From assembly GCA_025769875.1 (NCBI GenBank), contig JAGFNK010000198.1:24405-88404 (forward strand): DNA of 64,000 nt, in the 5' to 3' direction. The notes beneath the pieces are model-generated. The model did not search any database and had not been told where the DNA came from. It saw nothing but the letters and a program-made list of their open reading frames with translations. The stretch comes from Russula earlei. Lineage: Eukaryota > Basidiomycota > Agaricomycetes > Russulales > Russulaceae. Numbering within the stretch: position 1 is the stretch's first letter; every line of letters starts with the position of its first letter. Positions 32,810 to 57,363 of this stretch are shown here, piece by piece. Made by a program: the position numbers and the translations under genes.

Positions 32810-33001
32810 ACGTCCCAAACCACCACCCATGACCACCACACCTTACACCCAAATGCTGTCATACCGCCTCAGCGGACTATCTCTACTTAAACTTCATAAC
32901 GCCTAAACATAATACGTCGCTACCCAGCCCGTGACCGCCTCTGTATCACGATATACGCACTGCGGAATACAAATTCAGATTCAAAAAAAAAAAAAAAAAA
33001 G

Positions 33002-33410
33002 GAGCTGTGGTTTGAATCCTTTGGCTTAGGAGTACGAGAAGCCGGACGGTGTCTACTGCCGTAGTATAGTAAGTTGCGGAGTTCATCCCGTCCGGAGAGT
33101 GGCGCACCGTCAGCACCGAGCTCCTTAGGAGGACGAGGAGCCTGCCTCCCTTCTCCCCTCGGCTCACTCGGCTGCGCCGCTTTTCCCTTTGGCGCGCCGC
33201 TTTTCTTTAGCTTGTTATCCAGCCCCTCTTCATCATCTGAAAGCTGCGTCCATTTCTTCTTCCAGAATGACCCACTTCTGCAAGGTAAACTCAATTTTGG
33301 GGATTCGAGAAAACTTGAAAGACATACGGAACAATGTTTGATGGGAGCGCGAACGACGGAGCGATGCCAACGGCGAAGCAGAAAAGGGCAACGATGGGCA
33401 ACGGACGCAT
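33002..33410 (-). pseudogene. Small secreted-protein gene, copy A, last exon cut by the LINE
   Basis: Exon 1 is 33410-33328 and encodes a textbook signal peptide (MRPLPIVALFCFAVG..., then PSFA-LPSN). The intron is 33327-33278 (50 nt, GTATGT...TTGCAG, phase 2). Exon 2 runs from 33277 and encodes a Lys-rich part (SGSFWKKKWTQLSDDEEG, LKKSGAPKGKAAQPSE...). The LINE entered 12 bases before the end of this homology. Reading across the restored target site the frame ends at TGA 24426-24428 after ...HSSDTSPPL, which gives 126 residues and no frame break. A TATAAG box lies at 33549-33554. A conserved upstream unit (to about 34256) is shared with copies B and C. The function is unknown; export is predicted from the signal peptide alone. 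Confidence 0.6.
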
Positions 33411-34260
33411 CTGGTGCGTGGGCGTCGATTCAAAATATGAAAAAGTCTGCAAGGGTGTGAAAATGCCGTAACCAGTACCAAGCCGCGTGGCACGAATGGG
33501 GAGCACAGCTCTCGGGTGTGAGAGTCAAACCCGCCTCCTTTGTTCGTTCTTATACTCCTTGACCCTCGGGATACCGGCGAGGATTGGAAGCCCCCATCAT
33601 CAATCATTATGCGTTTAAGCGTTAAGAGTCCCGAGCGCCTCAAAACTCCCGCGCTGCCTGCCAGAGTGCTCCCACCTCATCAGATGATAGCGAATGCTCA
33701 ATCCACAATTTAAAAAGAAAAGCTCTGCAAGTCCGACTGGGCAATGCGTGCGTTCTTCCCAGTGAATACGGGAGTCGCGTTGATTCTGCCTTCTGGCCCT
33801 CATTTCCTCAATAGTGGATCTACATCCGCTGGGAGGTGGGGCAAACCTGTTCTCGTTATCATGAAAAAGTAAACCTGCCAACGCAGTATATCACGCTCGG
33901 ATGATTATTTTGCCATCAGTCGTCATCATTATGGTCATGATGTTCCCTCAGGGTCAATCACCTAGTGGCCAGTCAGTGGCCGCAAGTGAGCCGTGACAGC
34001 AACAAGCAACACCACCGAGTTGCCCATTGGGCAGTTCTGCGGGGCTGTGGCACTCGATCGACCCCACAAACATCGCAGTGATGGCTATACACAGAATGTA
34101 GCGGCCTCATTCTAGATGACGTGGGTAGCGGTATGAATGCGGGGCACAGACACAAAAATGAGGAGGGCCTAGAGCTGCGAGGGCATGTGGGTGCTCTCGG
34201 AGCTGCTGCGGTGGCTGATTCCTTGCTGGTCGAACGTGGGGCATAAGTCTACACATGTTC
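33411..34260 (-). repeat. Upstream unit of small-gene copy A (shared with copies B and C)
   Basis: About 850 bp repeated, with high identity, at 51124-51940 and in shorter form at 57364-57892. It holds the TATA box and, at 33881-33780 on the minus strand, a short conserved frame NENRFAPPPSGC..STIEEMRA that also occurs in copies B and C. In this copy the frame is shifted by one base after RDS. This is a segmental duplication, not a recognised transposon; no terminal repeats or target duplication were found. Confidence 0.65.
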
Positions 34261-34556
34261 GTGGAATTGGCAAGGACTTGCATCAGGAAAGACCCCCTGT
34301 GCTAGAAGTGTCCTTCAGTTGCATTCTTTTAACAGTGGGTTGAGTTACCATAAAAGGTGATTGTGTTGGCTAGAGAATTGGTGCATCAATCATGCATTTA
34401 AATGACACCAAATCATTTTCTCAATTACATATTCAATGACTTATTTATTAGCTATTAGACAAATAAATTAAAATGATACAAAAAAATATTTGTGTTGTAA
34501 GGAACAGCAGCAGTTGAGGCCATTAGAGGCAGTGGTGCAAGTCCAAAGGGACCTTC
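34261..34556. other. AT-rich unassigned stretch
   Basis: Nothing recognisable. An AT-rich part at 34380-34495 separates the repeat unit from the following LTR. Confidence 0.4.
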
Positions 34557-35130: not shown

Positions 35131-35370
35131 AGATTTTGAGACAATCCCATAAATCCTTATGTCAGGATACAGAACTCAGGCTCATCCTCAACTTTCCCCT
35201 TCCACCAACCTTCCTTTGCCTCCCCCACCAAATCAAGGACACCATCATCTGCACTGCCACCCCCAGAAGTCACACCCATCCACAATAATGGATCTGTATT
35301 CTACGATTGCAATTCCTTTCATGGAATCCACTCACGATCAGGAAGCTGTAGAGGAGGAAGCATCACTGAA

Positions 35371-35859: not shown

Positions 35860-35873
35860 CTGAACATCCCTGA

Positions 35874-36427: not shown

Positions 36428-36430
36428 TGA

Positions 36431-37141: not shown

Positions 37142-38808
37142 TGCTGTGATCTACCCCTCTTTCAGTTCATCCCTGAAACACTTCTTATTGTTCTCTTCTT
37201 TCACCCCCATCCCCTTGGTGTTACAAACCAAGGCCAGGTCCTGGCCATAGATTGTCCTATTTCACTCAAGAGAGACCTCTCTCAATTTGCATTGCCAACT
37301 CCCTTCCGTTTTCTGGGCTATCCCTCCTGCAGTACAAGATATCGCTATTGCAAGGGCACTATAACACAACCAGGCACCCGTTTCCTAATCGGGTAATCAT
37401 TGCGTGGCAGCCACATGGTCACCCAGCCACCAAGAACCCGAAACAGTGGCACCAACTCTTTGTTACGAACCAAGGCCAAGTCCTGGCCGAAGATTGTCCT
37501 ATTTTACTCAAGAAGAACCTCTCTCACTTTGCATTGCCGACTCCCTTCCATTTTCTGGGCTATCCCCCCTGCGGTACAAGATATTGCTATTGCAAAGGCA
37601 CTATAACACGACCAGGCACCAGTTTCCTAATCGGGTAATCATCGCGTGGCAGCCACATGGCCACTCAGCCACCATGGACCCGAAACAGCGGCACAAACTC
37701 TTAGAAACTGTTGCATAAATCATCTGACGTCATCAAGGCTCCAATGACATCATGGCTGACTGAGCGACTCCACAGTGACCTCATAGGCTCACTAAGCGCT
37801 CCACAGTGACATCATAATGATGTCATCGCTCCACAATGATCAGTAATGTGCTCAGTAAGCCTGAAAGTTGACACAAGCAAGTTTATGCCTCTGTAGTCCT
37901 ATTGGATGGTACCAAAGAGTCTAGAATAGTCCCAGTTCTTTGTAATCGACCCTGTACACTGTATATAAGCCCCAATGAAGCATGGCAGTCATCAGACTGT
38001 CCATTTGTGATACTCTCATCTTCCTGGGTACTCCCCTGCAACCGCTCAGTCTAAAGATTCCCCTCGCCTCCAAGGTACTCTTCAACGACCGCCTTGTTTA
38101 AAGCCCTCTCACTACACTGGCCTCCAGCCTTCGCCTCTGTCTCTTGCAACACCTACCAGTCCCCATCTGGTACCTCCTCATCATTTGGCTCGTCCTCTTG
38201 TTCAACGCCACCTTCACCGCATATCATCTGTTCCGACCCTTGCCCACCTGCTCCTGAGTCCTTAGTGATCAGCAGTACGTGTCTTGACACTTGGTTACCA
38301 TTCCATCCCTTGATATTGATGGCCCTTATTGTTTCACTCATTGTGTTTCATCTATTGATAAGTCTCTTTTGCTATTGGCTCACCTTTATCTATTGTTCCG
38401 CATATAGTACTGTACAGCCTCACTCAATACAGTATTTAAGTGCCTGTAGAAGCTGGGGAATGTCCCAAGCTTAGCTTTGTCCCATTTCCTGTCACATCCC
38501 TTGCCCTGTACTCTCTCTTAAATCACAACTTGCTTGTGCTGGCCTATACTCTGCTTGACCTTAGCACACCTCAAGGAACCCTCATGTTCCTCTTCCTCCT
38601 CTGCCTCTCTCTCATCAGTCCTCCTCTTCTGTGAAATCAGGAGATCGACTCTGTCTGTGGACTGAGTCATTGTCTGACTCAGCCTTGAGACACTAAACCC
38701 TTGATCCGGTCTCTTTGAGCCAGCCTCACTGAACCCTTGAACTAAGTCACAGGGACTTGGCCCCATTGAGCCTTGAGCTAACACTCTTATGGCCGCAACG
38801 CCATAACA
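37142..38808 (+). repeat. Gypsy-B 5' LTR, interrupted at 37219-38289
   Basis: Parts 37142-37218 and 38295-38808. TATTTAA box 38433-38439, presumed start site 38467 (AAGCTTAGCTT, 34 bp below the TATA). The end CATAACA is followed after one base by the complementary 11-mer. Confidence 0.9.
37219..38289 (+). repeat. Solo LTR, family T, with internal 242-bp tandem duplication
   Basis: TGTTACAAACC...GTCTTGACA with duplication CTTGG at 37214-37218 and 38290-38294. Two head-to-tail copies of a 242-bp segment occupy 37219-37460 and 37461-about 37702. A TATATAAG box lies near 37971. No coding sequence belongs to it; the frames there are incidental. Confidence 0.88.
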
Positions 38809-38809
38809 C

Positions 38810-38820
38810 AAGCTAAGCTT
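38810..38820 (+). promoter_or_regulatory. Gypsy-B self-primer binding site candidate
   Basis: AAGCTAAGCTT, one base after the LTR, is exactly complementary to 38467-38477 (AAGCTTAGCTT), the presumed first 11 bases of the transcript. The arrangement and spacing are the same as in Gypsy-A. Confidence 0.6.
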
Positions 38821-38845
38821 TCTTACTCCATTCTGGAGATCAACC

Positions 38846-40016
38846 TTGAACTACCACCCAACCGCTGGATCCGTGTCCAACCTAGACCTTCACCAGACCT
38901 CCCCCAACACGTCATTGGAGCTGCCACTTGGGACAGCTTCCACACCTTCCTCTGCTACATCACCACTGAAAACAACGAAGAATTACCAGTTGAATTTATC
39001 AACAACCGCTGGTTCAAGCTACAACTCAGAAGAGGACAGCTCTACACCCATCAGGACCTAGAACTCATCAGGAACAGCCTTGGATTAGGCTACTGGAGGG
39101 AAGACAACCCTCTTTATGAACCCCCATCAGAAACAGAAGCCTCTTCTACAGAAGGCAACCCCCCTGAACCAGAAAATACCACTGAAACTCAGACACCCAT
39201 TTGAATCCCCTGTGTTAGAACCAGAGGACCTCACTGAAACCCAGGAACCCACTGAACCACCAGAACCCGAACACCCTCAGAATCCCCAGAACCCACTATG
39301 GCAGCACAAGCCCCACAAGCTGCTCCAGCCCCTCAAGTTTCTGTGCAACCAGTCATAGCACCACAGGCTGTCCAAGGAACCAACTGGATCCCTTAGCGGC
39401 AAAGAACCCACAGTCTTCACAGGGGAAAGAAACAAAACTAAAAGATTCATCATGGAGTTCAACCTTTACTGGGGACTCAACGATGACAAGGCAGTCATGA
39501 GGGGCCCCTCTAAAAGGGTCATCCTAGCTCTTTCCTACATTCAAGGGGAAAAAGTAGAAGATTGGGTAAACTCACAAGTAACGGCCCTCAGAGAAAAAAT
39601 AACTAGGGCCCAGAATCCCTGTCAACCAAAACGACAAAGTCCTGTGGACCAATTTTGTCACTGACTTCACAGTTCAAATTCACTGAACACAGCAGAAAAG
39701 GAAGATGCCCCAGGCAGCTCTTGTCAAACTAGAAATGAAGGATTCCCTCGATGACTACATCTCCACCTTGAAACAACTTCTCACTAAAACAGGGTGGCCT
39801 GGAGACAGACATAATAGCCATTGAGAGCTTCAAAAATGGGCTCAAAAGTGGCCTCTACCGTGCAATCTTAAACAGGGACACCTGGCCCACCACTCTCCAA
39901 GAATGGAAGGAGGAAGCCAGGAGACAACATCAACAATTTGTCACTATCAGGGAGAAACTCAAAGGAAAGAAGACTACACACTCCCCTTCGGAGCACAAGT
40001 CCCATCACCCTGACTG
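38846..40016 (+). pseudogene. Gypsy-B gag
   Basis: N-terminal part about 38846-39200 (homologous to the Gypsy-A DSFHTFLCYIT block), Glu/Pro linker to 39420, then the gag core beginning MEFNLYWGLNDDKAVM (39452) and continuing in shifted frames to about 39990 (LDDYISTLKQLL, WKEEARRQ). At least four small indels are present. Confidence 0.75.
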
Positions 40017-40017
40017 A

Positions 40018-40919
40018 ATGCAAGTAGATGCTGCCAAGTCCAACTTTAAGAAGCTCACTAGAAGAAGAAAACAATTGGACCAAAGAAGGACTGTTGCTTC
40101 CATTGCAGGGAGAAAGGTCACCTCAGCCAGGAATGCCCCAAAAATATGGTCTCCACCACTTCTAAGGCCTGCATCACTGAATCTACCCCAAAATCATCCA
40201 AGGAAGAAGAAGCCTCCACCTATGGTGGCCCGCATGAAAGCATTACCACAGGAGGATAGAGCCAAACTTTGGGACCTCATCCTCAAAGAGGATTTTCTCT
40301 AGGCCAAGGTACAACAGTCGGTACTGAGGCCCAAATAGATACCATTGTCCAACATAAAGAAAACTCAATGAAAGTTCCCTTTATGATCACAACAAATGGA
40401 AAGACTGGCCAAGCACTCCTAGACAGCGGAGCAACTGGAAAATTTCATTAGCCAAGGAATTGTGGGAAAATTACAAATCCCACTTCAAACCCTCAGAACC
40501 CCCAGACCAATTATTAATGTGGACTGGCACTAACAACCAAGGAGGGAGCGCTAACCCATTACGCCCACATGGCTGTACATCATGGACCCACCACCCAACT
40601 TCTCACCTTCTACGTCACCAATTTGGGAGAAGACAGAATGATCCTCGGATATCCCTTCTTAAAGGCAATAAATCCCCTTATCAATTGGAGTACCGGTCAT
40701 CTCAGAAACCATTTAGGGGTCCTTCTTACCCCCATATCCCAAACAAACCTGCCAAAGATCCAAGTCGCACAAATAAGATCAACAACCATTCCCCCTGAAT
40801 ACTCATGGCATCAGAAAGTTTTCTTGGAAGAAGCAGCCAAACAACTCCCACCCAGTCGAGGAGAACTCGACTTTAGAATCACCTCAAAACCAGATGCCCC
40901 CAAGTTCCTTGATTGCTGA
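40018..40919 (+). pseudogene. Gypsy-B nucleocapsid knuckle and protease
   Basis: The knuckle remnant is at about 40095-40145 (CFHCREKGHLSQECP in a shifted frame). The protease active site LLDSGATG is at about 40420-40445, followed by a one-base insertion. DRMILGYPFLKAINP is at about 40630-40675, and the frame ends at 40919. Same order as Gypsy-A. Confidence 0.8.
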
Positions 40920-42298
40920 ACCTACCCTCTGCCTCAGAATGAAAAACAAGAACTATCAAGATAGATACAAGAAGACCTAGCCAAAGGTTTCATCAAAGAC
41001 AGGATCTCAGACTTCATATCTCCTGTCTTCTTTGTCCTAGAAAAAAGATGGCACCGCCCCATGAAGGGTAGTAGACTACCGAAAGCTTAATAATGCCACA
41101 GTCCCTGACTACCATGCCTTACCAAACATGGAAGGACAATTGCACCGACTAAGGGGCAAAACCACCTTTAGCAAATTTGACATCAGAGCTGGCTACAACA
41201 ACATCCTAATCTACCCAGAAGACTGACACAAGGGCACCTTCAAAACTCAATTTGGCACCTTCGTCCCCATGGTAATGGGCTTCGGCTTTACCAATGCCCC
41301 AGCAACCTTCCAACAGGCAATGAACCACACCCTTCAACCCTGGCTTCTAAAATACCCAGAGAACACCTGCAACTATCTAGATGATGTAGCAATAGCCACA
41401 GGGTTAGGGGAAGAACACCTTCACTGATGACGTCCTTGAAAGAGACTCTTATTTTTTAAAGGCATCCAAATGCGCCTTTGAACAAGAGAAAATCAACTTT
41501 CTGGGCTTCTGAATCAACCAAGGAACCCTCAAAATTGACCCAGTCAAGATGGATGGCCTCAAAAACTGGCCGAGACCCCCCAATAACCTGAAACAAGTAC
41601 AACGAGTCATGGGCGCCCTGAATTACCAATGACCATTTATCCGAGACTTTGCTAAAATAGCTCGCCCCATTTTCTCTACAATCAAGAAAGGAACCCCCTT
41701 CCTCTGGACCCCAGAAGCAACGTCAGCCCTAGAAACCTTGATATCAGCAGTCTGTGATGACCCTGAACTCTACACTGCCAACCCTGACCTCCCATATGAA
41801 TTAGAAACCGACTGCCTCACAATTCACCACCGGAGCAATCTTATTCCAGAAAGATCCAAGAGGAACAAGGAAAATGATTGGCAATATGTCACATGCATTC
41901 AACGAAGCAGAAAGGAACTACCTGGTTTGGGATAGGGAGTTCCTAGCCTTGATCCTTGCACTCCAACACTGGCGCTACCTATTGGTTGGAACAAAACACC
42001 CCATCAAGATTTTTACTGATCATGCCAACCTTGCCCACTATCAACTCCCCCATAAGATCAATCGAAGGATTGCAGGTTATATTTCCACACTGGTGGATTA
42101 TCATTTTGAAATTTACCACAAACCCGGGACTTCTAACCATGCAGATGCTCTCTCACAATGACCCGACCACAATGATGGGTCAGGGATAACCAGAATGTCA
42201 CGGCAGTCCCTGACAAACTCTTTATTTGCACACTCCACACAGAAGATCTGTATGAACAAGTCTTAAGAGAACAAAAAGTCCAACTACCGGACCTACTT
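40920..42298 (+). pseudogene. Gypsy-B reverse transcriptase and RNase H
   Basis: The RT palm has YLDD at 41374-41385. A stop TGA at 41510-41512 stands where Gypsy-A has CGA (GFRINQ), which shows directly that the ancestral codon was Arg. RNase H runs 41738-42161 (YELETD, WRYLLVGTKHPIKIFTDHANL, DALS). The frame is interrupted at about 41820-41870 and 42160-42200. Confidence 0.85.
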
Positions 42299-43620
42299 AT
42301 GTGGAAGAACAAACACAATTTACAAGAAGAAGACAGCGCACTATTCAAAGATGGAAAATTAGCTGTGCCCTATCTAGAACCCCTCTTACAAAGATTTCTG
42401 CACACATATCATGACAGCATCCTTGGTGGACACACGGGAAATGCTCGAACCTTGTACTCAATCCAAGAGTCATTTTGGTGGCCTAAAATGGGTTATTTCA
42501 TCTGGGACTACATTCAGGGTTGCACCACCTGCCAAGCCAACAAATCTTCCACACATCCTACTCACCCCCCGGTTTACCCAATTCCCCCTGAACTCCAAAA
42601 ACCATTCCAAACCATAGCCATTGACTGGATCATCGACCTCCCCCTGTTGGAAGGAAACAATGCTATCATGACCATCACGGATCACAGTTCCACCAAAGCA
42701 GCAATATTCATACCTTGCCATAAAGACATGGGAACTCTAGAAATGGCTAAATTATTTTTATGATATGCCTTCCCTTGGACCGGGGTTCCCTCAAAAATCA
42801 TTTCCGATCGCAACTCCCGCTTCACCTCCAATTTATTCAAAGAAGTTTCTAGAATTTTGGGAGTCAACCAAAACCTAAGTACTGCTTACCACCCTCAAAC
42901 TGACGGACAATCAGAAAGAACTAATCAAACCCTGGAAATGTATCTCCGCATCTACACCAGAGAGAAACAAGAAGAGTGGGCACACTGGCTCCCTATAGCC
43001 CAGTACCACTTCAACGCCCACAAGTCCACAACCACCAAACGAACCCCTTACGAGTTGCTCATCAGTTTTAACCCACAGGGACTTGGCACCCAACTAAAGT
43101 CTAAGTTCCCAGGGATTCAAGAGCGCCTTCAGGCTCTAAAAGACATGTGAGAATCAGCCCAAGAAGCAATGAAAAGGGCGCAAAGCCACTGGATCAAGGA
43201 AACCAAATTCAAAGGGTTTGAAGAAGGGCAGAAGGTTTGGCTGGAGGGGACTGATTTGAAGACCCCCCATCAGTTTCAAAAGTTCTGTCCAAAATGGTTC
43301 GGACCTTTTGTCATCACCAAGAAAATCTCCAATGTTGTCTACCAACTCCACCTTCCCCCTCAATGGAGTATCCATGACGTCTTCCATGCCTCCCTTCTAT
43401 CACCCGTCACTGAAATGGCCGAACATGGTCCTAACTTCCCCGAACCCCCCCCCTGACCTCCTCTCGGGAGAATATGAGGTCGAGAAGATTACCGCCCAAC
43501 ATCTCCATAGGAACCGACTCCAGTACAGAGTCCGGTGGAAAGGGTACTCTGCAGCAGAAGACACCTGGGAACCCCTCTCGAACCTTAAAAATGCTCAAGA
43601 TGCCATCACTACCTTTCATC
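42299..43620 (+). pseudogene. Gypsy-B integrase and chromodomain
   Basis: H2C2 zinc finger (HDSILGGHTGNARTL, CTTCQANK, 42411-42545). Core with IDWIIDLPLL (about 42625), ISDRNSRF (second Asp region, about 42800) and TDGQSERTNQTLE (about 42900). C-terminal GPFVITKK (about 43303). Chromodomain EYEVEKITAQHLHRN to TWEPLSNLK (about 43471-43592). Stops at about 42762 and 43148. Confidence 0.85.
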
Positions 43621-45329
43621 TACAACAACCCACCAAGCTCCACACTATGTCCACCACTAACTCTGATCCCACAGAATCCCACCACTCAGACAAAAGCCTA
43701 GATAATCTGGAACATCAGTTTCAAAGACTTACGATACAACAACGTACTTTACTTCCGCAAATCAATTCACGTAACCCCCCTTCCTATTCTGTTAATGATC
43801 CCTCTATCCCCGACCATGGACACACTATTTTCAACATAGCCACCAGGGAACAACTCTTTTCTGGAATCCTCTCTCCTGGCAACTTCCGTGAATTTCAGTT
43901 ACTTATAATGGACCCCCATTTTTCCAAATTCCATTTATCTATATGAAGAGCAGTACTCACAGATTTGGTATGGAACCATATTGTATGGTCAGCCTCCATA
44001 AATACCCCCACTCCTTCAGAATGGTCAGCTTGGCATCACGAACATGCCACCTCTACTTACAACACTCCCATGTTGTCTCCTGCTCCTAACTTGTCCCCTC
44101 TACCTATCCTCACCCCTTCCCCCACCATCAAACAAGAACCCCTCTCACCTAAAATTATCCAACACATCATCGACCAATGAACCTTTGTTGTCCCAGACGA
44201 GGCCAAACTCCAGGACCTTGCCGCCACCCTTAACCCACTTGCCATCCGAGAAGGAACACCCTCGCCAACTCCAACTGAAACTGATCCCACTCACCCTGGC
44301 CCCCCCTGGTTTGTTTACGAACCTTACACACATATTCCCCCTTTCTATATTAATGTTAGCAGGCGACGACGCCTATAACCATACTTACGTGTCACTTTAT
44401 ACAATGACAAACCCATGCTTCTAGGAACTATGGGTCGAGGAGAACCCGCTTATGGAGAAAAGCTCATAGCTCGACCCGTCATCTCTACCCCCCACCCCGC
44501 CACCACTGCCTCTGACCTCCACCTCTTAATTGAGGACCACCCTTTCCATTTTGATGTTGCTCAGGCTCTTGAGAACCTCCACAACCCTGGCACCCTTGCC
44601 AATGTCTACTGCCTCCACACCAGCTCTTTCCAGTTAAAGGTTTTAGAGGGCAAGCGCGCCTCCATTCAAGGGGCCCTAAGTGTCCTTCAAGGACAGCTCA
44701 CTGATCGACTCCACGAGATCCAGTCCCACACCAAAGAAACCACCGCCATCCACAGCCGCCTTCGAGCCAATAACACTGCTGTCTGAGTCCGTCACCAACT
44801 CGACAACCTGATGACCGATGGGGGCCTCACTTGTAACACTGGACCATTTTATTCATTAGCAGGAAACTATGACAGGATCGAGAGCTCAAAGGAACCATCC
44901 GTTCCCCCTTCCCCTCTGCTACCCACTTGTCCCCCCTCTCTCTTTAACCCCACCCCTTGAATACCTCCCTCGTACTGTCGACCAGTCCCAGAATGACGCT
45001 CCCATGGGGTCACCCTCCCACTTCCCTCAAATGTTCTCTGACAACGCTAGCACCCCCAACACCCCTCTCACCCCTGCACGTATGACCAAGGCGCAGCGTC
45101 ATCAACTCCAAAAGTGACAACATGTTTGCAAACACTGTAACACCAGAGAACACTGGAACAAGGACTGCAACAGACCTCACACCAACTGTAGAGGACAAGT
45201 GGACTGTATCCTCAGGAGGACTCACAGAAGTTATAGAGGTTTCTGTCCCAGAGCAACGGGAGTCCAGAGCACATGGCCAGAAGTCGAAGGCGATGAACTC
45301 CATGAGTTGGGTCCTGAGACCGATTAGTC
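43621..45329 (+). pseudogene. Gypsy-B C-terminal extension with terminal CCHC knuckle
   Basis: Continues in frame from the chromodomain through TIQQRTLLPQINSRNPPSYSV to a TGA at 43944, then 43965-45329 in broken frames. It ends with the knuckle CKHCNTREHWNKDC (about 45126-45170) and WPEVEGDELHELGPETD before TAG at 45327. It aligns over its whole length with Gypsy-A 3902-5468, so about 500 residues were conserved in the ancestor. Confidence 0.75.
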
Positions 45330-45357
45330 TGGAGAACTAAGCATGAAGGGGGCATGA

Positions 45358-45947
45358 TGCTGTGATCTACCCCTCTTTCGGTTCATCCCTGAAACACTTC
45401 TTATTGTTCTCTTCTTTCACCCCCATCCCCTTGGTTACCATTCCATCCCTTGATATTGATGGCCCTTATTGTTTCACTCATTGTGTTTCATCTATTGATA
45501 AGTCTCTTTTGCTATTGGCTCACCTTTATCTATTGTTCTGCATATAGTACTGTACAGCCTCGCTCAATACAGTATTTAAGTGCCTGTAGAAGCTGGGGAA
45601 TGTCCCAAGCTTAGCTTTGTCCCATTTCCTGTCGCATCCCTTGCCCTGTACTCTCTCTTAAATCACAACTTGCTTGTGCTGGCCTATACTCTGCTTGACC
45701 TTAGCACACCTCAAGGAACCCTCGTGTTCCTCTTCCTCCTCTTCCTCTCTCTTATTGTCCTCCTCTTCTGTGAAACCAGGAGATCGACTCTGTCTGTGGA
45801 CTGAGTCATTGTCTGACTCAGCCTTGAGATGCTAAACCCTTGATCCGGTCTCTTTGAGCCAGCCTCACTGAACCCTTGAACTAAGTCACAGGGACTTGGC
45901 CCCATTGAGCCTTGAGCTAACGCTCTTATGGCCACGACACCATAACA
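45358..45947 (+). repeat. Gypsy-B 3' LTR
   Basis: 590 bp, TGCTGTGATC...CATAACA. It lacks the family T insertion, which therefore came after Gypsy-B. Differences from the 5' LTR are mostly CpG versus TpG/CpA (for example cctcgctc/cctcactc, gtcgcatc/gtcacatc). Confidence 0.92.
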
Positions 45948-45951
45948 ATCC

Positions 45952-47080
45952 ACCCTTCCATGCCAGGAGTGACCACTTCCTCCTTTACCCTGAGAAGGCT
46001 ACAAATTTGTTGACCCCTCCACATTGACCAAGTCACTTGTCATCTCACCAGACTGCGGCCCTCAATACTCTTCTACCCCCCCCCCTTCTCTTTGTTTATC
46101 CTGAAATGTCTGTGATCTTGAGATTGCCCTTGCCAAGAGGGTGTCAGGGGCATCATCTGCTGCCTCCTCACAATCTGCCTACAGCTCAGATAGTGAAGTC
46201 GCTTCCACCATCTATTTACCAAAGGCAGTTCAAACACAGATGCCATCACCCTCAATGACTGTGTAATCTACACATCTCTGTGGTGAAGTTGTGCTCCTTT
46301 GAGGATGAGGGAACATCCAGGACACCATGCCCCATTGGATCACCTTGAGATCCCTTCCTCCTTCCAGTAAGATGACCTCCAAAGCTACTGTTGTCATCCA
46401 GACACAGGCACAATCAAGACGGAACTGTTCTGGTTATTCCAGCCAACAGTGGCTTGTCATCTCCACTGTCCCTCCTAACCCTCCCATTCACCCTCAATCC
46501 TGCACATTGTCTGTGACCAAGGCTACAATTACCCATTATCATCAATCCTTATTGGACACCAAGAAAAAGCACCACCCACCCCAAAAGGAAGATTCAGCCA
46601 GATCTTCTTCCATTGACAGAGTCCTGAAGGCATGCCCCATCCCTTTTCACTCAGCCCTCTCAAGTTAACCTTTATGCTTTACAGTTCATTGCAAATGCAC
46701 TGGATGCTGCAAGAGGAGGTAGTTGGTTGTCCCTTGTGTGCAGTGCATTGCAGGGATATTCTTCTCATGAACAGACAGGACAATATGAAGGTGAATCACA
46801 TGAGAGATGGCATGCACAACAAAATGACTGAACAAATCCCATCTGATGACGACCTCATGTGGTTTACTTTTGCAATATTTACAATATTCCAATATTCAGC
46901 AATGTAAATTAGATCACTTGTAGTCAAAGTAGGTTGGTAGAGATAAATAGTGTACAAAAAATTGTTTACACAATCTACACCTTGTCCTAAGTAATACTGG
47001 CCCATCTGGCCCAAAAACCCTGAGATCAGAGATCACACATTCAGATGGGGGGAGAGCTGGGCAGGTATTTTTAATATTTA
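45952..47080. other. Unassigned sequence between Gypsy-B and Pogo-2
   Basis: Frames at 46037-46668 are Pro/His/Ser-rich. Frame 46632-46907 (HRDILLMNRQDNMKVNH) is not recognised. Nothing else was seen. Confidence 0.3.
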
Positions 47081-47233
47081 CTATCACCTATGGGGAACTT
47101 GCTGATTCACTACCATCTTGCCAGTCACAAATGTCATGAAAGTAACAGGCATGTAACACATGCCAAATTAAAGTCCACCCAGAATGAAACATCCCCACAT
47201 CATATTTACATAGGCAATTTGGTTGGGTGGGGA

Positions 47234-50226
47234 CTAGGGAAAACAGTTGTAATGGGCATCTAATTGAGTGAGGTCCAGTTCTTCTTGAGTCTGGAATGAT
47301 GGTACAGTACTATTGTAAGGTGTAGTGCTGTAAGCAAAAACCATGTGGTGTGTTAGTGAGGACAGTTGTGCAAACAGTTGTGCTGTGTTTGAGGGTCCTA
47401 CTGATGACTCAGAGGCCAGGGACAATGAGGAAGGATACTGAATACTACTACATTGTCTGCCATAGAGTCCCATAAACCATTGGTTGATTTCCAACTCTGG
47501 ATGTGCAGCAAGGTGCTCTTTTATTTGTGTGGTGAGCTCAGATGTGGTGCCCTCCATCAAGAGCTTGAGTGCACCTGCAATGATCATGAGGTCTTCCTTG
47601 CGCTTGTATGATGAAAGAGAGTTGTTGAAAACCTTTGAGACAGTACCTTCACTAATTCATATTGCATGGGCAGAATCTTCAGCAGCCTTCTCAGTGCGCT
47701 TTTGTATTTCTTGTCTCTCCTGGGTAATTCGGTTTCATTTTTCTGCTTCCTTCAGCTCAGGATGCATCACAAACCAGGCCTTGATCATTGTTGAAGCTTG
47801 TGTTTTTGTTTTTTTGCTGATTTTAAAGCTTCACACAAATTGTTGGCCCCTCACTGGGTGATCATGCAGTGTGCATTTGCCACACTCAGTTGCAATGCTT
47901 GCATGATTACTGTTTGTGTGAGGACCAAAACTTGTTGATGAAGTATCGTATTTTCACAATCAGCTCTCGATGGCTCCACTTTTGATATTGGAGCAGAGAG
48001 ACAACTTGGTCATCAGAAATGACCTCCTCTGTGGTCTGTGCCAAAGACCATTGTGTGATTATTGAGTTGCACACACACAAGTGTGGGTCAGTGGTTGAGG
48101 ATTCATGAGTGCTAGTCATGTCCCCAGCACCTTCCTCCAAGTCCAAGGCACTGTCATCACTGTCACTAGTGTCAGAACTGAGGTCTGAGCTGATTTCTGG
48201 AGGCAATGTCAGAACCTCTATTGGGTATGAAGACAGGAAGCATGACAAAGATGACAACACCATGCTAGGCACAAAGTCCTCCTCCATGAAGACCAATGGA
48301 TTGAGGGGCCAGATTCCAGACTTGCAGAATGCATTCTGAATGAGGTCTGGGGTGATAACTTTCCAAATCTCCATGTATTCATAGATAACATTATAACATG
48401 TGATCTTGATGCCTTCAGCAAGGTGGCAGTCACAATGTGATGACCATGCACATTGGACTGGTGCAAAAGCCAACACATCAAGTGGCTGAAGCTTGTGTGT
48501 TGTCTTCAAAGGGAAGCAGAACAGGATAACATTATTGTTATATGCAAGTTGCTGCATGGCCCAGGTCTCATGTGAGCTGTGCCCATCAAGGGTCAGTACA
48601 ATTGGCTTGTTGTTAATGCAATGTGTAGTAGCAAATGGAATGAATACAGAAAGGAACCATCACTCACATATTTTGTGATCTGTCCACCCAGAAGGGGACA
48701 TTGCAATGCTGCAAAGACAAATATATCAATTCCTGCTGCCATACTGCTGGATCAAATCTCACCTTCCAACACCTTCCAAATCCTGGCAGTCAGGCAGTGG
48801 GCCATCTGAGAGAACAAAGCCCAATGGCATAATAGATCCCCCTGCTTAAATGCACTCAATGATGGAGACGAGCTCCACGCAGTTGCTCTTGATATGGTAT
48901 CGCTGTTTCTGCTCTTTCATGAATAAGAACTTCCTTCCATTGTTCTTACAGCCACCTCCCATCTGGATTCCCTTCTCATCCATATTCCACTGATGTTCTG
49001 GTGGTATCCCATCATAACTATCCACCAATTCCTGTTGTTTTGCAAAGTAGTCATGGACTACTGCCTTATTGAAATTTTGTGTGCACTTTGGATCCAATGC
49101 TCTTGCTTTTGAGAAAGTCAGACTGGAGTTGCATTTGATGAACTGATAGTGCCAGTTTATTCCAGGGTACTGGCCAGAGATGTCCAGAGCATGAGCGTGC
49201 AGTGCCTTTTGATCCAGAGGCATTGCCTTTGCAGACAATTGGTCACACCAATCTAACAATGCCTTTTCCTGGGCTGTCTTGAGAAGCTGGCCATCCTGGT
49301 GGGCTTCCTGACATGACCTATGTCTCCCAGAAGCTCTGTTACACCATTTTCCTTTTACGTTTACCTCTTACCTTTTGCTATGGACTGCCTGCTTTCGTAC
49401 ATCCCTTTACTTACTGGTCTTGTGATCTCCTACGTCTTGTGATTCCTTCTGTGTTATCATGTGATCCATACACGTCCAGGTAACACTGGATTGCTGTTAC
49501 TTTCCCTTTGTTTGGTTCTCTTTCCATTTATATTCACTTCTTAGTTTTGACTGTGCAATGCTGCGCACCTACTGTGCAGCACAGTTACTTGGTTCTGACT
49601 CATTCGTGGCCTCATTCCTATGACTCCTACTTATTATGACTCCTACTATATTAGTAGCACAGTCAAAGCACAGCTATTGCTGCGCTTCTCCTGTATACAG
49701 TATAAGCTCAGTACTTTGTGACCAAAGCCCTAAGCTGGGTCTCTTGTAGAATCCAACCTACTCTTGTCCAACATATTCTCCTGCAACCCACTTCACTCTC
49801 ACAAACTTAAACCACAACCACCTCTCCATTTCATCAACTCCCAACACACCATCCACCATCTACTTGTCACCTTTCCCTTCCTTCCCTAAGAGTCTCTCTT
49901 CACTCCCCTGAGAAGAGCTCTCCTCCTTTAAGACCTACCTTCCTCTACTCTCTCTGCATTGTTCAAGGTCCCCAACAGACTTGAACGCATATAGCTAGTG
50001 GAACCAGCCCTAGTCTATCCCATTATAAACTTACCCTAGCTTCTCAACGGACCGAGTTGTACTAGGAAGGGTCTATTGGCCATAACCTGTTTAGCATAAA
50101 ACACTTCAACCGCTGCAGGGATCCTTACTCATTATACACAGGAACCAGCCCATTTCTTGAACACCTCTCTATCATCGACTTGTTTTCTGCTTGTGAACTG
50201 ACACGGCTAGTTACCATGACAAGCTC
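47234..50226 (-). pseudogene. Pogo-2 transposase, interrupted by a solo LTR
   Basis: The N-terminal part is right of 50226, followed across the LTR by RASGRHRSCQEAHQDGQLL and KALLDWCDQL (49330-49230). The catalytic blocks are NMDEKGIQMGGG (about 48985-48950), TLDGHSSHETW (about 48600-48565) and KLQPLDVLAF (about 48495-48465). Then LIQNAFCKSGIWPLNP (about 48340), an acidic Ser-rich stretch, and the C-terminal block 47587-47234 (AGALKLLMEGTTSELT). Frames are broken near 48840, 48560, 47900 and 47590. The layout equals Pogo-1. Confidence 0.8.
49337..50221 (+). repeat. Solo LTR, family U, in the Pogo-2 transposase
   Basis: 885 bp, TGTTACACCATTTTCC...TTACCATGACA, duplication AGCTC at 49332-49336 and 50222-50226. 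No other copy is in this window. Orientation is by TATA-like sequence only (about 49697) and is uncertain. Confidence 0.85.
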
Positions 50227-50734
50227 TGTCTCATAGCATCTGGCAGGAAACCTTGGAAATTATTGGATAAGGACTTCACTATGTACAGAATGCAGCACTC
50301 ACATCATGGGCCAGTGCTGCATGAGCAAAAGATCAATGTATACCATTGTTGTAGTCACTCAAAGCAGCCTGTAGCCACTGCTCATATGTGTGGTCTTGTG
50401 CTGGCCGACTGGACCATCTATAACGTGGCATTAAGGGGATAGAACAGCAGTGACCCAGACCCCTCAGAGTTGGCATTCAGTGATCACCCAGTTGGAATCA
50501 AACTCCACACTCCACCATAACAGAAGGCGTGATGCAGGTGTGACCCCCAGCCAAAATAACTACAAGTTTTAAATGTAGTTGTTCAAGCAGTTATAGGGGA
50601 AAATGAAATCAGCAAGATGGTAGTGAATCAGCAAGTTCCTCATAGGTGATAGTATTCTCACACTCAACACATGCATAAGATTTGTAAGAATTCCTTTTAT
50701 GGAAATGTGAGTTTGGGGGGAGAGGAAGGACAGT

Positions 50735-51123
50735 TTATGAGTCCCATTCTTTCCCTGTCACGTGATCCGTGTGGTGTACCGTCAGCACCAGCTCCTCTTC
50801 TTTCGTCGTACCCAAGTTTGGTTTGAAGTTCTTATACTTATGCTCAGGAGGACGTTCTCCCGTCCGCTCACTCGGCTGCGCCCCGTTTCTCTTTGGCGCC
50901 CCGCTTTTCTTTAGCTCACCCAGCCCCAGGTCGGGAGCATAATCAGATTTTACAAGGGTTTTCATCCTATCCCTCATCTTCTTCCCACGTCTGCAAGGTA
51001 AACTCAATTTTGAGGATTCGACGAAACTTGAAAAACATACTGAACAATGCTTGATGGGAGCGCGAACGACGGAGCGATGCCAACGGCGAAGCAGAAAAGG
51101 GCAACGATGGGCAACGGACGCAT
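50735..51123 (-). CDS. Small secreted-protein gene, copy B (112 aa, two exons)
   Basis: Exon 1 is 51123-51041: MRPLPIVALFCFAVG..., PSFA-LPSSIV, a canonical n-, h-, c-region signal peptide with predicted cleavage after PSFA. The intron is 51040-50991 (50 nt, GTATGT...TTGCAG, phase 2). Exon 2 is 50990-50735 (RGKKMRDRMKTLVKSDY, LKKSGAPKRNGAQPSE, ... TGKEWDS, TAA). Total 339 nt including stop, in frame. An in-frame TGA just upstream fixes the start at this Met. TATAAG box 51266-51271. The mature part is basic, Cys-free, and has no recognised domain. A spurious single-exon reading on the same strand exists but lacks the signal peptide. Confidence 0.6.
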
Positions 51124-51940
51124 CTGGTGCGTGGGATCGTCGATTCAAAGATATGAAAAAGTCTGCAAGGGTGTGAAAATGCCGGTAACCAGTACCAAGC
51201 CGCGTAGAACGAATGGGGAGCACAGCTCTCGGGTGTGAGGGTCAAACCCGCCTCCTTTGTCCGTTCTTATACCCCTTGACCCTCGGGATACCATCAATCA
51301 TTTAGGCATTCAAGCGTTAAGAGTCCCGAGCGCCTCAACACTCCCGCACTGCCGGTGCCAGTGCTCCCACCTCATCAGATGTTAGCAAGTACTCAATCCA
51401 CAAACCTTTGCAAGTCCGACTGGGCAATGCGTGCGTTCTTCCCAGTGAATACGGAGTCGCGTTGGTCCCGCCTTTGGGCCCTCATTTCCTCAATAGTGGA
51501 TCCACATCCGCTGGGAGGTGGGGCAAACCTGTTCTCGTTAACATGAAAAAGCAAACCTGCTAACGCCGTATTTTTGCCATCACTCGTCATCATTATGGTC
51601 ATGATGTGCCCTCAGGGCCAATCACCTAGTGGCCAGTCTGTAGCCACAAGTGAGCCGTGACAGCAACACCACCGAGTTGCCCATTGGGCAGTTCTGCGGG
51701 GCTGTGGCACTCGATCGACCGCACAAACACCGCAGTGATGGCTACACACAGAATGAAGCGGCCTCGTTCTAGATGACGTGGGTAGCGGTATGAATGCGGG
51801 GGACATAAACACACAAAAATGAGGGCCTAGAGCTGCGTGTGTGTGCTCTTGGGGTTGCTGCGCCGGCTGATTCCTTGCTGGCCGGACGAGGGGCACGAGT
51901 CTACACACATGTTTGTGGAATTGGCAAGGACTTGGACATG
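51124..51940 (-). repeat. Upstream unit of small-gene copy B
   Basis: Matches 33411-34256 almost throughout. It includes the TATA box and the conserved short frame NENRFAPPPSGCGS..EEMRA (51530-51395), which here continues openly to LQRFVD and stop. Confidence 0.65.
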
Positions 51941-54580
51941 CCTGGCCAGCCAGTTGGTTCACTTCAGCCTATAGACTAGTGACTCGACGACATTGTTGAA
52001 CAGCTCGTTCTATTCCGTGCCTCAACCGCCGCGCTCAAAGGGCAGACAGAGCACACTTTGGAGAATCAATATGTATACAACCTCTCTATCGGAAATAACA
52101 ATGACTGTCCCCGTTGATGTTGAAACTCTTGTGGTCTTGGTCCGAAGAAGGGAGAAGGGGGGGAGGGGAAGCGAAGTGCACAAAGGCAGGCGCAGTACGG
52201 CCGGTGACGAGAGGACACGCGGAAAGGCCAGCAGATGGGGCGGCGGCGGCACGTACAAGACGGACGGACAAGGGCGGATGCGAGGAATCAAGCAATGTAG
52301 GCGCAGAACTGCCTAAGGGAGGGCGAGACGGTGCAAAGGAGTGGGGGAGTCGAACGGCGACAAGAAGGAGAGGAGACGGAAATTTTGGTCGGGAGGAAGA
52401 CTTTGTGCAGAGAGCGGGGGAAGCGCGGCGGCATGCAGGGAATTGGAGCGAGAGACTGGAGTTTAGATCGCGAGGTGCAAGCTGCTCACGGTCAGGAGCC
52501 AAGTTTACACAGCTGGCAGCACCTCCGGTTCATAGCGAGAGGGGGGCATCAGGGCAAAGTCGAAGGACGCGCTATAACGACGATAGGGGAAGGGAAGACG
52601 ATGGGGCAGGTATTGAGGCTAAAGTTAAGGACGGCTACGTACTAGGGGCTGCTCTACGATGAGGTTCGAGCGCGGGGATAAAGGAATGATGTGGTAGCGG
52701 AGGCGGTGAGGCGGGCACCTTGAAGGTGCGATTGTGCACGTCGGGGCGTTTGTGTCAGCGAACTGGGCGATGACGGGGTAAGCTGTCGAGGGGAAGGGGA
52801 AGGAAAAGAAAATGGCTTGTCCGAGAGTCCTTCGACGCGTGGCTGCTGCGCGCTTCAACTCGGGCGTTTGTCCCCCAGTTACCTTGCACGCCTTCTAATA
52901 TACACGCAAACAGCGACTCGGCAGCTTGACAAGTCAGAGCGAGTGGTTGTTTCTTCTCGAGGCTACGTGAGTCACCGCAAGACGAGATGAGGACGCCAAA
53001 ATCACAGCAACGAACAGGCTCATGGTGGCCGCCCAGTACTGGTGGCACTCAAACGCTCTCCCTGGCCCGAGACGGGGGGTCAACGATCAGCACACGTATG
53101 TATCGGTGTCGTGCACATCGAGGCTTGTACAGTTTCCGATCCAATCCAATCCACTGTCTCCTCACATTTCAGTTTCAACCTTTTGCTCCCACTTCACACG
53201 CCCTAGGCCCCGACGTGTTGCCGACGCCGGCGTCTGCGCTTTCTCATGGCGTGACTCGACGACTTTTCATTTTCGAATCACATCCGAGGGCCTTCGATCA
53301 TATCGACCATCCTTGCTTCCTCCTTTTTTTTTTTTTTTGCCTTCTTCTGCCTCGCCCGTCGTCTGCGCCTAGGTGCTCCACCTCGGCATCCTTCTGTCGC
53401 ACCCCCCTTGAAAACGGACTCTGCCTTTGCTTTGCACAGATCGGAGCGGGACGATGGACCTCCCTCGACGCTCTCCTCAAACCCCGATCGTCTCTCGAGC
53501 GCAGGCTGTCTCAAACAGGTTGCCCGTCTGTTGACGGGTGCGGCGGTGGCCGCGATCGTCGGTGGTCTGGGCGCTGCGGAATACTTCCGATTTCTCCACT
53601 CCCTCCCTCCATCACGAGCCGCCCAAACAGGACGGGATTGAGAACGGGACATGGTGTGCGCCTTCTTCTCGCGTCGTATACGGTGACCGATGTGTGTTCA
53701 CTCCCCCCCCCCCCCCCCCCGTCCGAGTCCTTCCTCTCCGGTCCAACAAATGCGTTCGGATAAGTCGCTCTCACGACGCGTCTCGAGGATCGATTATTTT
53801 GGATTGATGGCCGCATGGAGTATATATTTTTTTGGTTGATGTGTCGTTCGGAGGGCGTCCGATGACTTGCTTCGCGTATTTGTTCGAATGACTGCCAGGA
53901 TTACGATGTGGGATGCGCTCCCCTCGGGGACAGGATAACTGGATGCATTTCTCGTGACATACACCATTAACTTCTGTAGTCAACCCCCATGCATCTGACA
54001 GTCTGCCATTCTTGTACTTCTGTCCGGACCATAGGCTATGCACATGTTTGACCCTTGGGTCTGGTCCATTCAATCCGTGAAAGTGTCCAGATAGACCCAT
54101 GGTCCTCCAGAGTTATGGCAGGATGGATGAAAGCAAAGTTGTCGTCCCATGCGGCCACATGATACGGCCACTACGTGAAACATGTGCTTGAGGGGGATGA
54201 ACCACCTCACCAGCTCGGCGCACCCCGTGACGGTGTTAGATGCAAATGGCTGGCAAAATGAAGCGGTGTGGTCTATACATGACCCAAGCAGCGGCAATAC
54301 TGGAACGGAGCAATCCCAATCAGCTTATGCGCAGGGACACTCGATACTCACTAAAGATCGCATGCGATAATATGCGGAAAATCGTGTCATAAAAACCATA
54401 ACGATGATGAGTGGTGGTGATGTATTCTACGATACGAATACGTAACTAAGCATGCATGTAAATTACTTTATAAGGTGCTGGAGGATCAGCATGGGAGGGA
54501 GAGGAAGGTGTGGACGAGTAGCTGGGAGATATTTCCCAACGATCGAGGTGTCGCGAATGTCAGCAGTCTAACGCATGGAG
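51941..54580. other. GC-rich intergenic region before hsp60, no firm gene
   Basis: Frames on both strands at 52086-52858 are composition-driven. At 53454-53641 a frame with a hydrophobic stretch (LLTGAAVAAIVGGLGAAEYF) could be an exon but no partner was found. On the minus strand 54297-53771 two abutting frames look protein-like (GCAELVRWFIPLKHMFHVV; GPDPRVKHVHSLWSGQKYK) with a frame change at about 54080, perhaps a decayed host gene. A run of 18 C lies at 53703-53720. Confidence 0.35.
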
Positions 54581-54625
54581 CAGAGACAATGCGTAACATC
54601 GCAACGAATTAGTCCGGCAACACAT

Positions 54626-56608
54626 TTAGAAGCCACCCATACCACCCATACCACCCATACCAGGACCGCCCGCAGGTTTTTCCTCCTCGCCATCGACGAT
54701 GCTCGCCTCGCTTGTTGTGAGCAAGCTCGCAACACCCGCCGCGTCTACAAGCGCAGTCCGGACGACCTTGAGTGGATCGACGATACCTGCCTTTATCATG
54801 TCGACGTATTCACCCTTGCTCGCGTCGTAGCCCCACGCAAACTTCTCTGGCGTGCCATATTGCGAAGAAAGCGTCCCAACGATCACACTCGATTCTTCGC
54901 CGGCATTGTCGAGGATTGTGCGAGTAGGACGGGTCAGAGCACGACGGATGATAGACACGCCAAGGTCCTGGTCAAAGTTGGCCGTCTGGATCGGTTTCGC
55001 ATCTGGGTTCGGTGTGCTTGAAGCCGAAGACGTATTAACCGCGCCAGGTGCGGAAGAGACGAGAGCAAGTGAAGCCTTGAGCAGTGCAACGCCGCCTCCG
55101 GGAAGTATGCCTTCCTCAACAGCGGCACGCGTTGCATTAAGAGCATCATCGTAGCGGTCCTTCTTCTCACCAACCTCCACCTCGGAAGAACCGCCAACCT
55201 TGATGACGGCAACACCACCAGACAGCTTCGCAAGACGTTCCTGCAATTTAGTGCGATCGTAGTCGCTAGTCGTGGGGTCGGCAACAAGCGAACGGATCTG
55301 CTCGCACCGCGACTGAATTGCATCTTTTGAACCCTCGCCATTAAGGATGATGGTATCCTCTTTGGTGATGGTCACAGAGCCCGTAGATCCAAGAAGGTCT
55401 ACCGTAGCCCGCTCAAGTTTGATATCGAGCTCGTCAGTGAAGACGGTTCCACCAGTCAAAATAGCAAGGTCACCGAGGATGCTCTTGCGATTGTCACCAA
55501 AGCCAGGCGCCTTTACAGCAGCCACCTGAAGCTGACCACGAAGCTTGTTAAGGATGCAAGCAGCAAGGGCCTCGCCATCCACATCCTCCGCAATGATGAG
55601 TAGAGGCCGACGAGCCTGGGCGGCAGCTTCAAGGGACGGAAGGATGTCTTGGAGGAGGGAAATCTTCTTCTCTGACAGAAGGATATAGGGTTTCTCAAAC
55701 TCGACCTTTTGCGCCTTGACGTCGGTAATAAAGTAGGGAGAAATGAAACCACGATCGAAGCGCATGCCCTCAGTGATTTCAATCTCGTCTTCAATGGTGC
55801 GTCCCTCCTTCACTGTGATGACGCCTTCCTTGCCCACCTTTTCCATGGCCTGGGCAATGAGGTTGCCGATGTGGGTGTCGCCATTGGCAGAAATTGTTGC
55901 AACCTGTGCGATCTCGGCGGTGGTGGTGATTGTTTTTGTGTTTTTGGAAAGGAACTCGACGACGCGCTCCACAGCAGCCTGAGACCCACGGCGAAGGTCC
56001 ATGGGGTTGCAGCCTGCAGCAACGTTCTTGACACCCTCAGCGTATATAGCGTGTGCAAGAACTGTCGCCGTTGTGGTACCATCACCGGCAATCTCGTTCG
56101 TTTTTTGTGCGACGTCCTGAACCAATCTGAAGAACAGGGCAAAAAGTCTAATTGAGACATATATTCATGCATTGCGACATTTCAATCTACGTACCGCGCT
56201 CCAAGATTCTCAAACTTGTCCTTCAACGTGATGGCCTTGGCGACTGTGACACCATCTGAAGAACCAAGAATGAGAAAAAATGAGCGGATGCTTCTCGAGA
56301 GAATGGCTTACCCTTGGTGATTTTGGGTCCACCGAACGACTGCTCGATGATAACATTCCGACCTACACACGCGGACACGTCAGCAAAAACGTAAGAGTGG
56401 GAACACGAAAGGGAGGCAACAACGAACCTTTCGGCCCAAGCGTAACACTGACAGCGTTTGCAAGTACGTCGACGCCTTTGAGGATGCTCGCGCGGCCCTC
56501 GTTGGAAAACTTGATTTCTTTATGGGCGCCGCGGGCGAGAACGGCGCGAGTGGCCTTGGCTGAGGCGCGACGGAGAGCGCGGGAAGAAGTGGAGGAGACG
56601 TGGTGCAT
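54626..56608 (-). CDS. hsp60: Mitochondrial chaperonin Hsp60 (GroEL family), four exons
   Basis: Folds imported proteins in the mitochondrial matrix as an ATP-driven ring with Hsp10. Exons 56608-56428, 56362-56312, 56255-56195 and 56126-54626 (1794 nt, 597 aa) are joined by introns of 65, 56 and 68 nt with GT...AG ends. The N-terminus is an Arg/Ser/Ala-rich targeting sequence ([18 protein letters not shown]). Then [28 protein letters not shown], the ATP motif [11 protein letters not shown] and the cpn60 signature [16 protein letters not shown] follow. The tail is GGM-rich ([13 protein letters not shown]), as usual for this family. It looks intact and CpG-rich, unlike the neighbouring repeats. 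A TATA-like atatatag lies about 150 bp upstream. No clear heat-shock element was read. Confidence 0.96.
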
Positions 56609-56935
56609 GGTGTAGGAATGTGGGGAAACAGAGGAGAGAAGGGGAGTGGAAGGGGAGTGGCAAGGGAAGGGTTGAGAAAGAAAATGAAGCAAGGGAAGGA
56701 CGCGGGCTTTGCTTTTGTTTGGCATTTATTTGGCTCATGCTTACGCAGATACAAGCCATATATAGTTGGCCTTAGTAAATGAAGACAGGAGATTCGACTT
56801 GGCCTCTCCAAGCGTAACCTATATACCTAGCCAGAACAGTAGGACAACGAGAGAGCGAACTTGGGGAAGCAACGAGAAAGAGACGAGACAGTTCGACGCG
56901 TGAGAGGAAAAGACAAGTGGCTACTACGCGAAAAA

Positions 56936-57363
56936 TTAAATTATCATGCGGCCTTTCCCTTTCTTGTCGACGGGGACGGGGGTACCCGAAGGTTGAGGAC
57001 CAGGCTTCACTTCTACCTCCCCGTTTCTTATCAGTCTCACTATCTCTCCTGCGCCTTTCACCTTACCATCTTCATCTGTTGGAAGAACAATCTCATCCTT
57101 CCCGAACGTCTCATCCTTTTTCTTCTTCCCGAACTTCAGAAAGTTGTTCTTTTTTTTCGTCCTCCCGAACGTCTCATCCTTTTTCGTATTCCCCAACGTC
57201 TCATCCTTTGCCTTCTTCCCGAACCCACGTCTGCAACGTGATCTTAATTTTGGGGATTCGACAAAACTTGAAAAACATACGGAACAATGTTCGATGGGAA
57301 CGCGAACGACGGAGCTATGCCAACGGCGAAGCAGAAAAGGGCAACGATGGGCAACGGACGCAT
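56936..57363 (-). CDS. Small secreted-protein gene, copy C (125 aa, two exons)
   Basis: Exon 1 is 57363-57281 (same signal peptide, with FPSNIV at the end). The intron is 57280-57231 (50 nt, GTATGT...TTGCAG, phase 2). Exon 2 is 57230-56936: RGFGKKAKDETLG, then imperfect KKDETFG repeats, then DEIVLPTDEDGKVKG and KPGPQPSGTPVPVDKKGKG, stop. Total 378 nt, in frame. The mature part has no similarity to copies A and B apart from being Lys-rich. TATAAG box 57504-57509. It lies 327 bp upstream of the hsp60 ATG, same strand. Function unknown. Confidence 0.6.

Follow-up and report, generated by a model that had tools for sequence, protein, structure and literature searches.

What do three minus-strand loci encode that share a leader exon and a short intron, each joined to a divergent second exon? 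The loci (copies A, B and C) lie in a 64,000-nucleotide (nt) stretch of Russula earlei DNA (contig JAGFNK010000198.1, positions 24,405 to 88,404), hereafter the window, and the original prediction described them as a three-copy family of small secreted proteins. The answer favored here, at a probability of roughly one half, is that they represent an effector-like superfamily of predicted secreted proteins, so far restricted to R. earlei, in which a constant 5' module precedes a hypervariable exon 2.

As read from the window sequence, all three copies possessed an 83-nt leader exon 1 and a 50-nt intron 1 with a phase-2 donor and the same ends (GTATGT donor, TTGCAG acceptor). Left unspliced, the intron brings an in-frame stop; once it is removed, the frame stays open through exon 2 in each copy. 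This arrangement was confirmed at the positions first proposed for it, as follows.

33411..34279, minus strand: upstream conserved block of copy A, spanning the 869 nt 5' of the ATG
33549..33554, minus strand: copy A TATA box, TATAAG at -144
33464..33510, minus strand: copy A AGCTGTGCTCCCCATTC and GGTACTGGTTACGGCA, local forms of both superfamily 5' motifs, read from the sequence
33328..33410, minus strand: copy A exon 1, 83-nt leader, predicted signal peptide MRPLPIVALFCFAVGIAPSFA
33278..33327, minus strand: copy A 50-nt intron 1 (GTATGT..TTGCAG), with a TGA in frame when retained
33001..33277, minus strand: copy A exon 2 as far as the insertion of a long interspersed nuclear element (LINE); original 3' end not in place
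51124..51933, minus strand: copy B conserved upstream block, TATAAG at 51271-51266
51041..51123, minus strand: copy B exon 1, leader
50991..51040, minus strand: copy B intron 1, 50 nt
50735..50990, minus strand: copy B exon 2, completing a protein of 112 amino acids (aa); its allele B' (contig C116) is 98% identical
57364..57796, minus strand: copy C conserved upstream block, TATAAG at 57509-57504, motif AGCTGTGCTCCCATTC at 57466-57451
57281..57363, minus strand: copy C exon 1, leader
57231..57280, minus strand: copy C intron 1, 50 nt
56936..57230, minus strand: copy C exon 2, completing a 125-aa protein with KKDETFG repeats; site of the divergence peak between haplotypes
54629-56164: Hsp60 (GroL) gene lying between C and B, used as a conserved anchor when comparing haplotypes

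Some of the dimensions first given needed adjustment. The TATAAG motif, placed 140-145 bp 5' of the ATG, was present in all three copies, at 144 nt (A), 148 nt (B) and 146 nt (C). The conserved upstream DNA, put at 0.5-0.9 kb, reached up to 869 nt (A) and 810 nt (B) between A and B, and between A and C it covered about 430 nt and one further, shorter block. Predicted protein lengths of 112 aa for B and 125 aa for C stood, while the 126-aa end given for A was wrong, since exon 2 of A contains the poly-A tail of a LINE on the plus strand and the frame continues to 146 aa; copy A was accordingly rejected as an intact 126-aa gene.

Beyond the window, the 66.6-Mb R. earlei assembly containing it (1374 contigs) possessed 11 near-full-length copies of the 152-nt leader and intron unit of the core subfamily. 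A protein probe gave 72 genomic matches, some of them weak (E up to 0.9), and a composite leader probe gave 150 scored matches from 380 candidates, every one at E 1.5e-4 or better. Two leader patterns returned 75 matches (1 in the control) and 246 matches (0 in the control), and 100 of the latter were listed and used for place counts. Among the matches listed from the protein probe, the leader patterns and the composite probe, at least 222 distinct leader places were found on 173 contigs, allelic copies included.

The shared module extends on both sides of the leader. The intron-end motif GTTGACTTNACCTYGCAG was matched 82 times (1 in the control), 44 of them directly after a listed leader. The upstream motifs CAGCTGTGCTCCCAYTC and GGTRCTGGTTACCGACAA had 83 and 107 matches respectively, with none in the controls; a listed leader followed within 260 nt downstream on the same strand for 51 of the 83 CAGCTGTGCTCCCAYTC matches and for 49 of the 100 listed GGTRCTGGTTACCGACAA matches, and on the wrong strand for none, and 18 pairs of the two motifs stood 11-19 nt apart. 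Copy A itself was not among the listed genome-wide motif matches. Together, the four shared 5' elements marked at least 325 places among the matches listed, 124 with two or more elements and 201 with a single one; as allelic copies are included, the gene number lies below these place counts. Upstream 400-nt stretches joined 38 of the 39 fetched loci by single linkage, a procedure that may chain. Judged from these matches, the three window loci belong to a genome-wide superfamily of predicted secreted proteins, and the description as a three-copy family, true of the window only, was rejected given the genome-wide leader matches.

Concerning gene structure, intron 1 was annotated as predicted in nine of the 12 placeable R. 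earlei proteins (P0003-P0006, P0008, P0009, P0011-P0013), and its phase differed between subfamilies, being either 1 or 2. The introns were called on 41 rows, 10 of which lacked a recognised donor/acceptor pair; the acceptor pattern was devised once the sequences had been inspected, and locus C571 counts twice (L042, L059). Two annotated models deserve separate mention: at L012 (contig C1289), where a tandem second copy of the intron and exon 2 start was present (61-nt match), model P0001 uses the second acceptor, and at L078 model P0007 reads through a 54-nt intron and ends in a CaaX-like CVVV, found in 1/31 proteins.

The sense frame of exon 2 was open for at least 60 codons in 26 of 31 rows, compared to 8 of the 62 remaining forward frames. 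When six pairs were aligned as nucleotides, every exon-2 gap run was a multiple of three (17/17) against 6/30 in the 300 nt past the stop, with L059 in two of the six pairs and some of the downstream stretches unrelated. Exon 2 is thus, as judged from its frames and gaps, coding, with the frame kept through indels. An antisense gene was also considered, the antisense frames of copy C being open, and was rejected for the family as a whole, in which such frames were open in 10 of 27 members only (the L018 row was mis-set by its own frame error).

The predicted products were 75-157 aa long (27 proteins). All 31 proteins inspected, near-duplicates included, had a hydrophobic N-terminus (best mean hydropathy over 8 residues 2.61 or higher), with P[SL]F[AT] falling between residues 15 and 25, so that a signal peptide is predicted by inspection and hydropathy, in place of SignalP. 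The mature parts were mostly cysteine-free (of 27, 23 lacked Cys, two had one, one had two and one had five), which sets the family outside the cysteine-rich class of small secreted proteins (SSPs). They were also mostly basic (isoelectric point of at least 8 in 23/27) and 26/27 fell on the disordered side of the charge-hydropathy line. The AlphaFold2 model of P0006, built on a seven-row alignment, contained the signal helix only (residues 5-14), with a mean predicted local distance difference test score of 54.7. Pfam gave nothing above cut-off in 14 and then 10 members, with one weak match among the former and one below cut-off among the latter, and no meaningful match was found among solved structures for copy C (best E 0.21). 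Among known effector motifs, RxLR was found in 1/31 proteins, and [YFW]xC and a C-terminal DELD in none (0/31), which places the family outside these effector types. Overall, the predicted products are short, carry a predicted signal peptide and lack a known domain, as expected of effector-like small secreted proteins.

All 18 annotated homologues recovered belonged to R. earlei (17 proteins in the profile search, 4 in the single-sequence search). A control search with Hsp60 showed that Lactifluus subvellereus, Auriscalpium and Artomyces were present in the database, and the 120 rows listed included no further named Russula; close relatives may therefore be missing from it. The family can be called absent outside R. 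earlei only at the sensitivity of these searches, a statement that does not extend to other Russula. It was undescribed in the open-licence literature searched, and a description elsewhere is possible.

Where divergence falls was examined between copies and haplotypes. Over 12 representatives, the leader had a ratio of nonsynonymous (dN) to synonymous (dS) rates of 0.28, and by this measure is under purifying selection. Copies C and B have counterparts, C' and B', on contig C116, at a spacing of 6241 compared to 6240 in the window, with Hsp60 between them and blocks 96.4% and 98.6% identical; given the equal spacing, the intervening Hsp60 and the high block identity, C/C' and B/B' were taken as alleles. 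The 9.3-kb C/C' block, taken in 47 bins of 200 bp, differed by a median of 1.0%, and the peak bin, at 14.8%, lay in C exon 2, with the next bins (up to 4.9%) including its 3' side. The two exons 2 had 41/265 differences, one of them a gap of 21 nt, equal in length to a single KKDETFG repeat. B and B' had 6/256 differences in exon 2 and 2/600 upstream, and the five allele-like pairs taken together had 55/1243 in exon 2 against 29/2993 upstream, C/C' supplying 41 of the 55. An excess in exon 2 was also present in four paralogue-like pairs (20.1% in exon 2, 1.9% upstream, 3.2% in the intron). The comparison of exon 1 with exon 2 suggested in the original prediction returned a constrained leader and an exon 2 diverging faster than the neighbouring DNA; with the in-frame gaps, these results uphold its description of a conserved promoter, leader and intron joined to a fast-changing exon 2, a pattern it had likened to effectors. 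In the region 3' of B (45945-50735), the C116 haplotype loses synteny just past B', and the DNA that follows is 88% like positions 47072-45945 of the window; in the annotation, the B' protein is flagged as partial.

Such a pattern could also arise if the leader had spread by duplication in front of mostly non-functional cargos, downstream DNA having turned into open reading frames (ORFs) by chance, as de novo births under relaxed constraint. Several features are expected on that account: upstream blocks were 93-99% alike in pairs with unrelated downstream DNA, several copies were broken, 24 Pfam scans gave only the two weak matches, and exon-2 dN/dS was near 1 in several pairs. It accords poorly with the 17 frame-keeping gap runs and with stops that match between related cargos, and relaxed constraint alone cannot explain an exon 2 that diverges faster than the adjacent non-coding DNA. 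In addition, two exon-2 probes matched family loci only across the genome (5/5 and 6/6 matches), and the exon-2 part of the C protein matched C and C' alone. No captured source was therefore seen, and capture of cargos from other genes was likewise set aside, as these three queries revealed no outside source. Leader spread with idle cargos is, on balance, unlikely.

Several observations weigh against the effector-like reading itself. Three of the 12 placeable annotated models (P0001, P0002, P0007) lacked the predicted intron 1, and in some members the intron, at 36, 51 or 54 nt, leaves the frame open if retained. Degraded copies occurred in the core subfamily of 11: A is cut by the LINE, two have leader frame errors, the acceptor AG is missing from one, and another is short when read from the first acceptor. 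A strong exon-2 peak was present in only one of the five allele-like pairs (C/C'), without which the counts fell to 14/978 in exon 2 and 17/2398 upstream, and the four paralogue-like pairs with an exon-2 excess had been picked for similar upstream DNA. Finally, dN exceeded dS in only 7 of 13 exon-2 pairs, a count without a significance test (as in the pairwise alignments, copy A figures include its LINE-derived tail), and synonymous sites were raised too between C and C' (exon-2 dS 0.51, dN 0.24).

As exon-2 dS is raised along with dN, the excess is not a clean signal of positive selection, and simple positive selection was judged insufficient. To account for the peak, a tract that is older or has been exchanged, balancing selection or a locally raised mutation rate is required, whether or not positive selection also acts. 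L059 and L061 were nearly identical over the first part of exon 2 and not over the remainder, whereas L059 and L060 diverged earlier, a pattern that would suit an exchange of segments.

A different use of the peptides, against other fungi or microbes or in within-species self/non-self recognition rather than on a plant, would make C and C' recognition types. It draws on the deep divergence of C and C', confined to exon 2 and the first part of the 3' flank in a block that otherwise differs by about 1%, and on the cationic mature parts. It appears quite unlikely, because only one of the five allele-like pairs behaves in this way and no recognition locus could be tied to the family, partner or receptor genes not having been systematically sought; the neighbour between B and C is Hsp60. 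The toxin-immunity-like character also raised in the original prediction found no backing either, with no partner gene identified, in the absence of a systematic partner search, and only the two weak Pfam matches among the 14 and 10 members.

Under the effector-like reading, each gene consists of a TATA box, two 5' motifs, a signal-peptide exon and a short intron, followed by a hypervariable exon 2 predicted to encode a mostly cysteine-free, basic and disordered mature peptide. The shared promoter may provide coordinated expression, and the leader would direct the product to the endoplasmic reticulum, with cleavage after ..PSFA. Mature peptides released outside could act in an effector-like manner at the root interface, under pressure to change; Russula forms ectomycorrhiza, according to the available text of PMC8417538. 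Exon 2 would diversify in frame by substitution, by gain or loss of repeats and probably by segment exchange between copies or alleles. If so, much of the rapidly changing secretome of an ectomycorrhizal Russula would be catalogued from a single short 5' signature, members apparently missing from the annotated proteins returned among them. Fixed-cassette diversification in symbiotic fungi would also become testable, as would the question of whether the host, rivals or self-recognition drives it, and the C/C' pair, with both flanks known, would be a ready test locus.

That the unit is instead part of a transposable element, the small secreted protein being a prediction artefact, is highly improbable: although copy number is high, the window contains LINE and long terminal repeat (LTR)-type elements with a chromodomain ORF, and A and C are apparently absent from the annotated proteins (not returned in homologue searches), the members scanned with Pfam contained no transposon domain within the unit, the copies share no common 3' boundary, the leader is under apparent purifying selection with indels that keep the frame, and the few open antisense frames give, in the material examined, no sign of the real ORF on another strand or frame that the original prediction had named as grounds for abandoning it. 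The element interrupting copy A was resolved as follows.

24460..33000, plus strand: LINE-type retroelement inside copy A exon 2, 5' end inferred from the 12-bp repeat
24448-24459 and 33002-33013: 12-bp repeat GAGCTGTGGTTT, candidate target-site duplication of the LINE
26486-27853: weak CCHC zinc knuckle of the LINE
28765-29889: endonuclease domain of the LINE, E 5e-13
30826-31902: partial, weak reverse transcriptase (RT) of the LINE
32983-33000, plus strand: poly-A tail of the LINE

Two related repeat elements in opposite orientation were also found (3196-11107 and 38290-45947), with terminal-repeat-like copies D1, D3, D8, D9, I1 and I2 and, in the second, a chromodomain ORF (43260-43943); they are probably LTR retroelements. 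No RNA family reached its gathering threshold across 50600-58500.

Known systems near to the R. earlei family include the SSPs and mycorrhiza-induced SSPs (MiSSPs) of ectomycorrhizal fungi. According to PMC7550596, species-specific genes make up 31.2% of those it studied as induced in symbiosis, and most of them are MiSSPs or have no known function. Such proteins are, like the R. earlei family, short, leader-bearing, without known domains and, for R. earlei as far as the searches reach, lineage-restricted. Unlike them, the R. earlei family has a single leader, promoter and intron module at a couple of hundred or more places and non-alignable, cysteine-poor cargos. A Marssonina SSP family of 107 members with a conserved N-terminal IGY motif (PMC4367982) is likewise large, fungal and conserved at the N-terminus; its motif is different by name, it belongs to another phylum, and the portion of that source at hand mentions no shared promoter and intron module. 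In plant-parasitic nematodes, whose effectors likewise include hypervariable families, promoter motifs are tied to sets of secreted effectors (PMC10946958, PMC11309470, as excerpted), which recalls the shared promoter motifs seen here; the nematodes are animal parasites, and the likeness is one of description.

Conotoxin superfamilies, classed by signal-sequence similarity, have highly variable mature regions and same-phase introns, according to the accessible sections of PMC10437998. They resemble the R. earlei family in their constant leader and variable mature part, in working principle only. They differ in being products of venom snails with a propeptide and a cysteine framework, compared to 23/27 Cys-free mature parts here, and R. 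earlei introns are of phase 1 or 2 depending on the subfamily; lacking a cysteine framework, the family was rejected as a member of any conotoxin superfamily. A more far-reaching proposal, tentative and with the odds against it, is that R. earlei possesses a genome-wide constant export cassette serving a couple of hundred or more genes, which keep a single promoter, 5'UTR motif pair, leader and intron and whose exon 2 is turned over by a dedicated or strongly favoured process, be it segment exchange between copies, local hypermutation or long-held balanced alleles as in C/C'. Such a cassette would be a fungal counterpart of conotoxin-type diversification, acting on disordered, Cys-free peptides.

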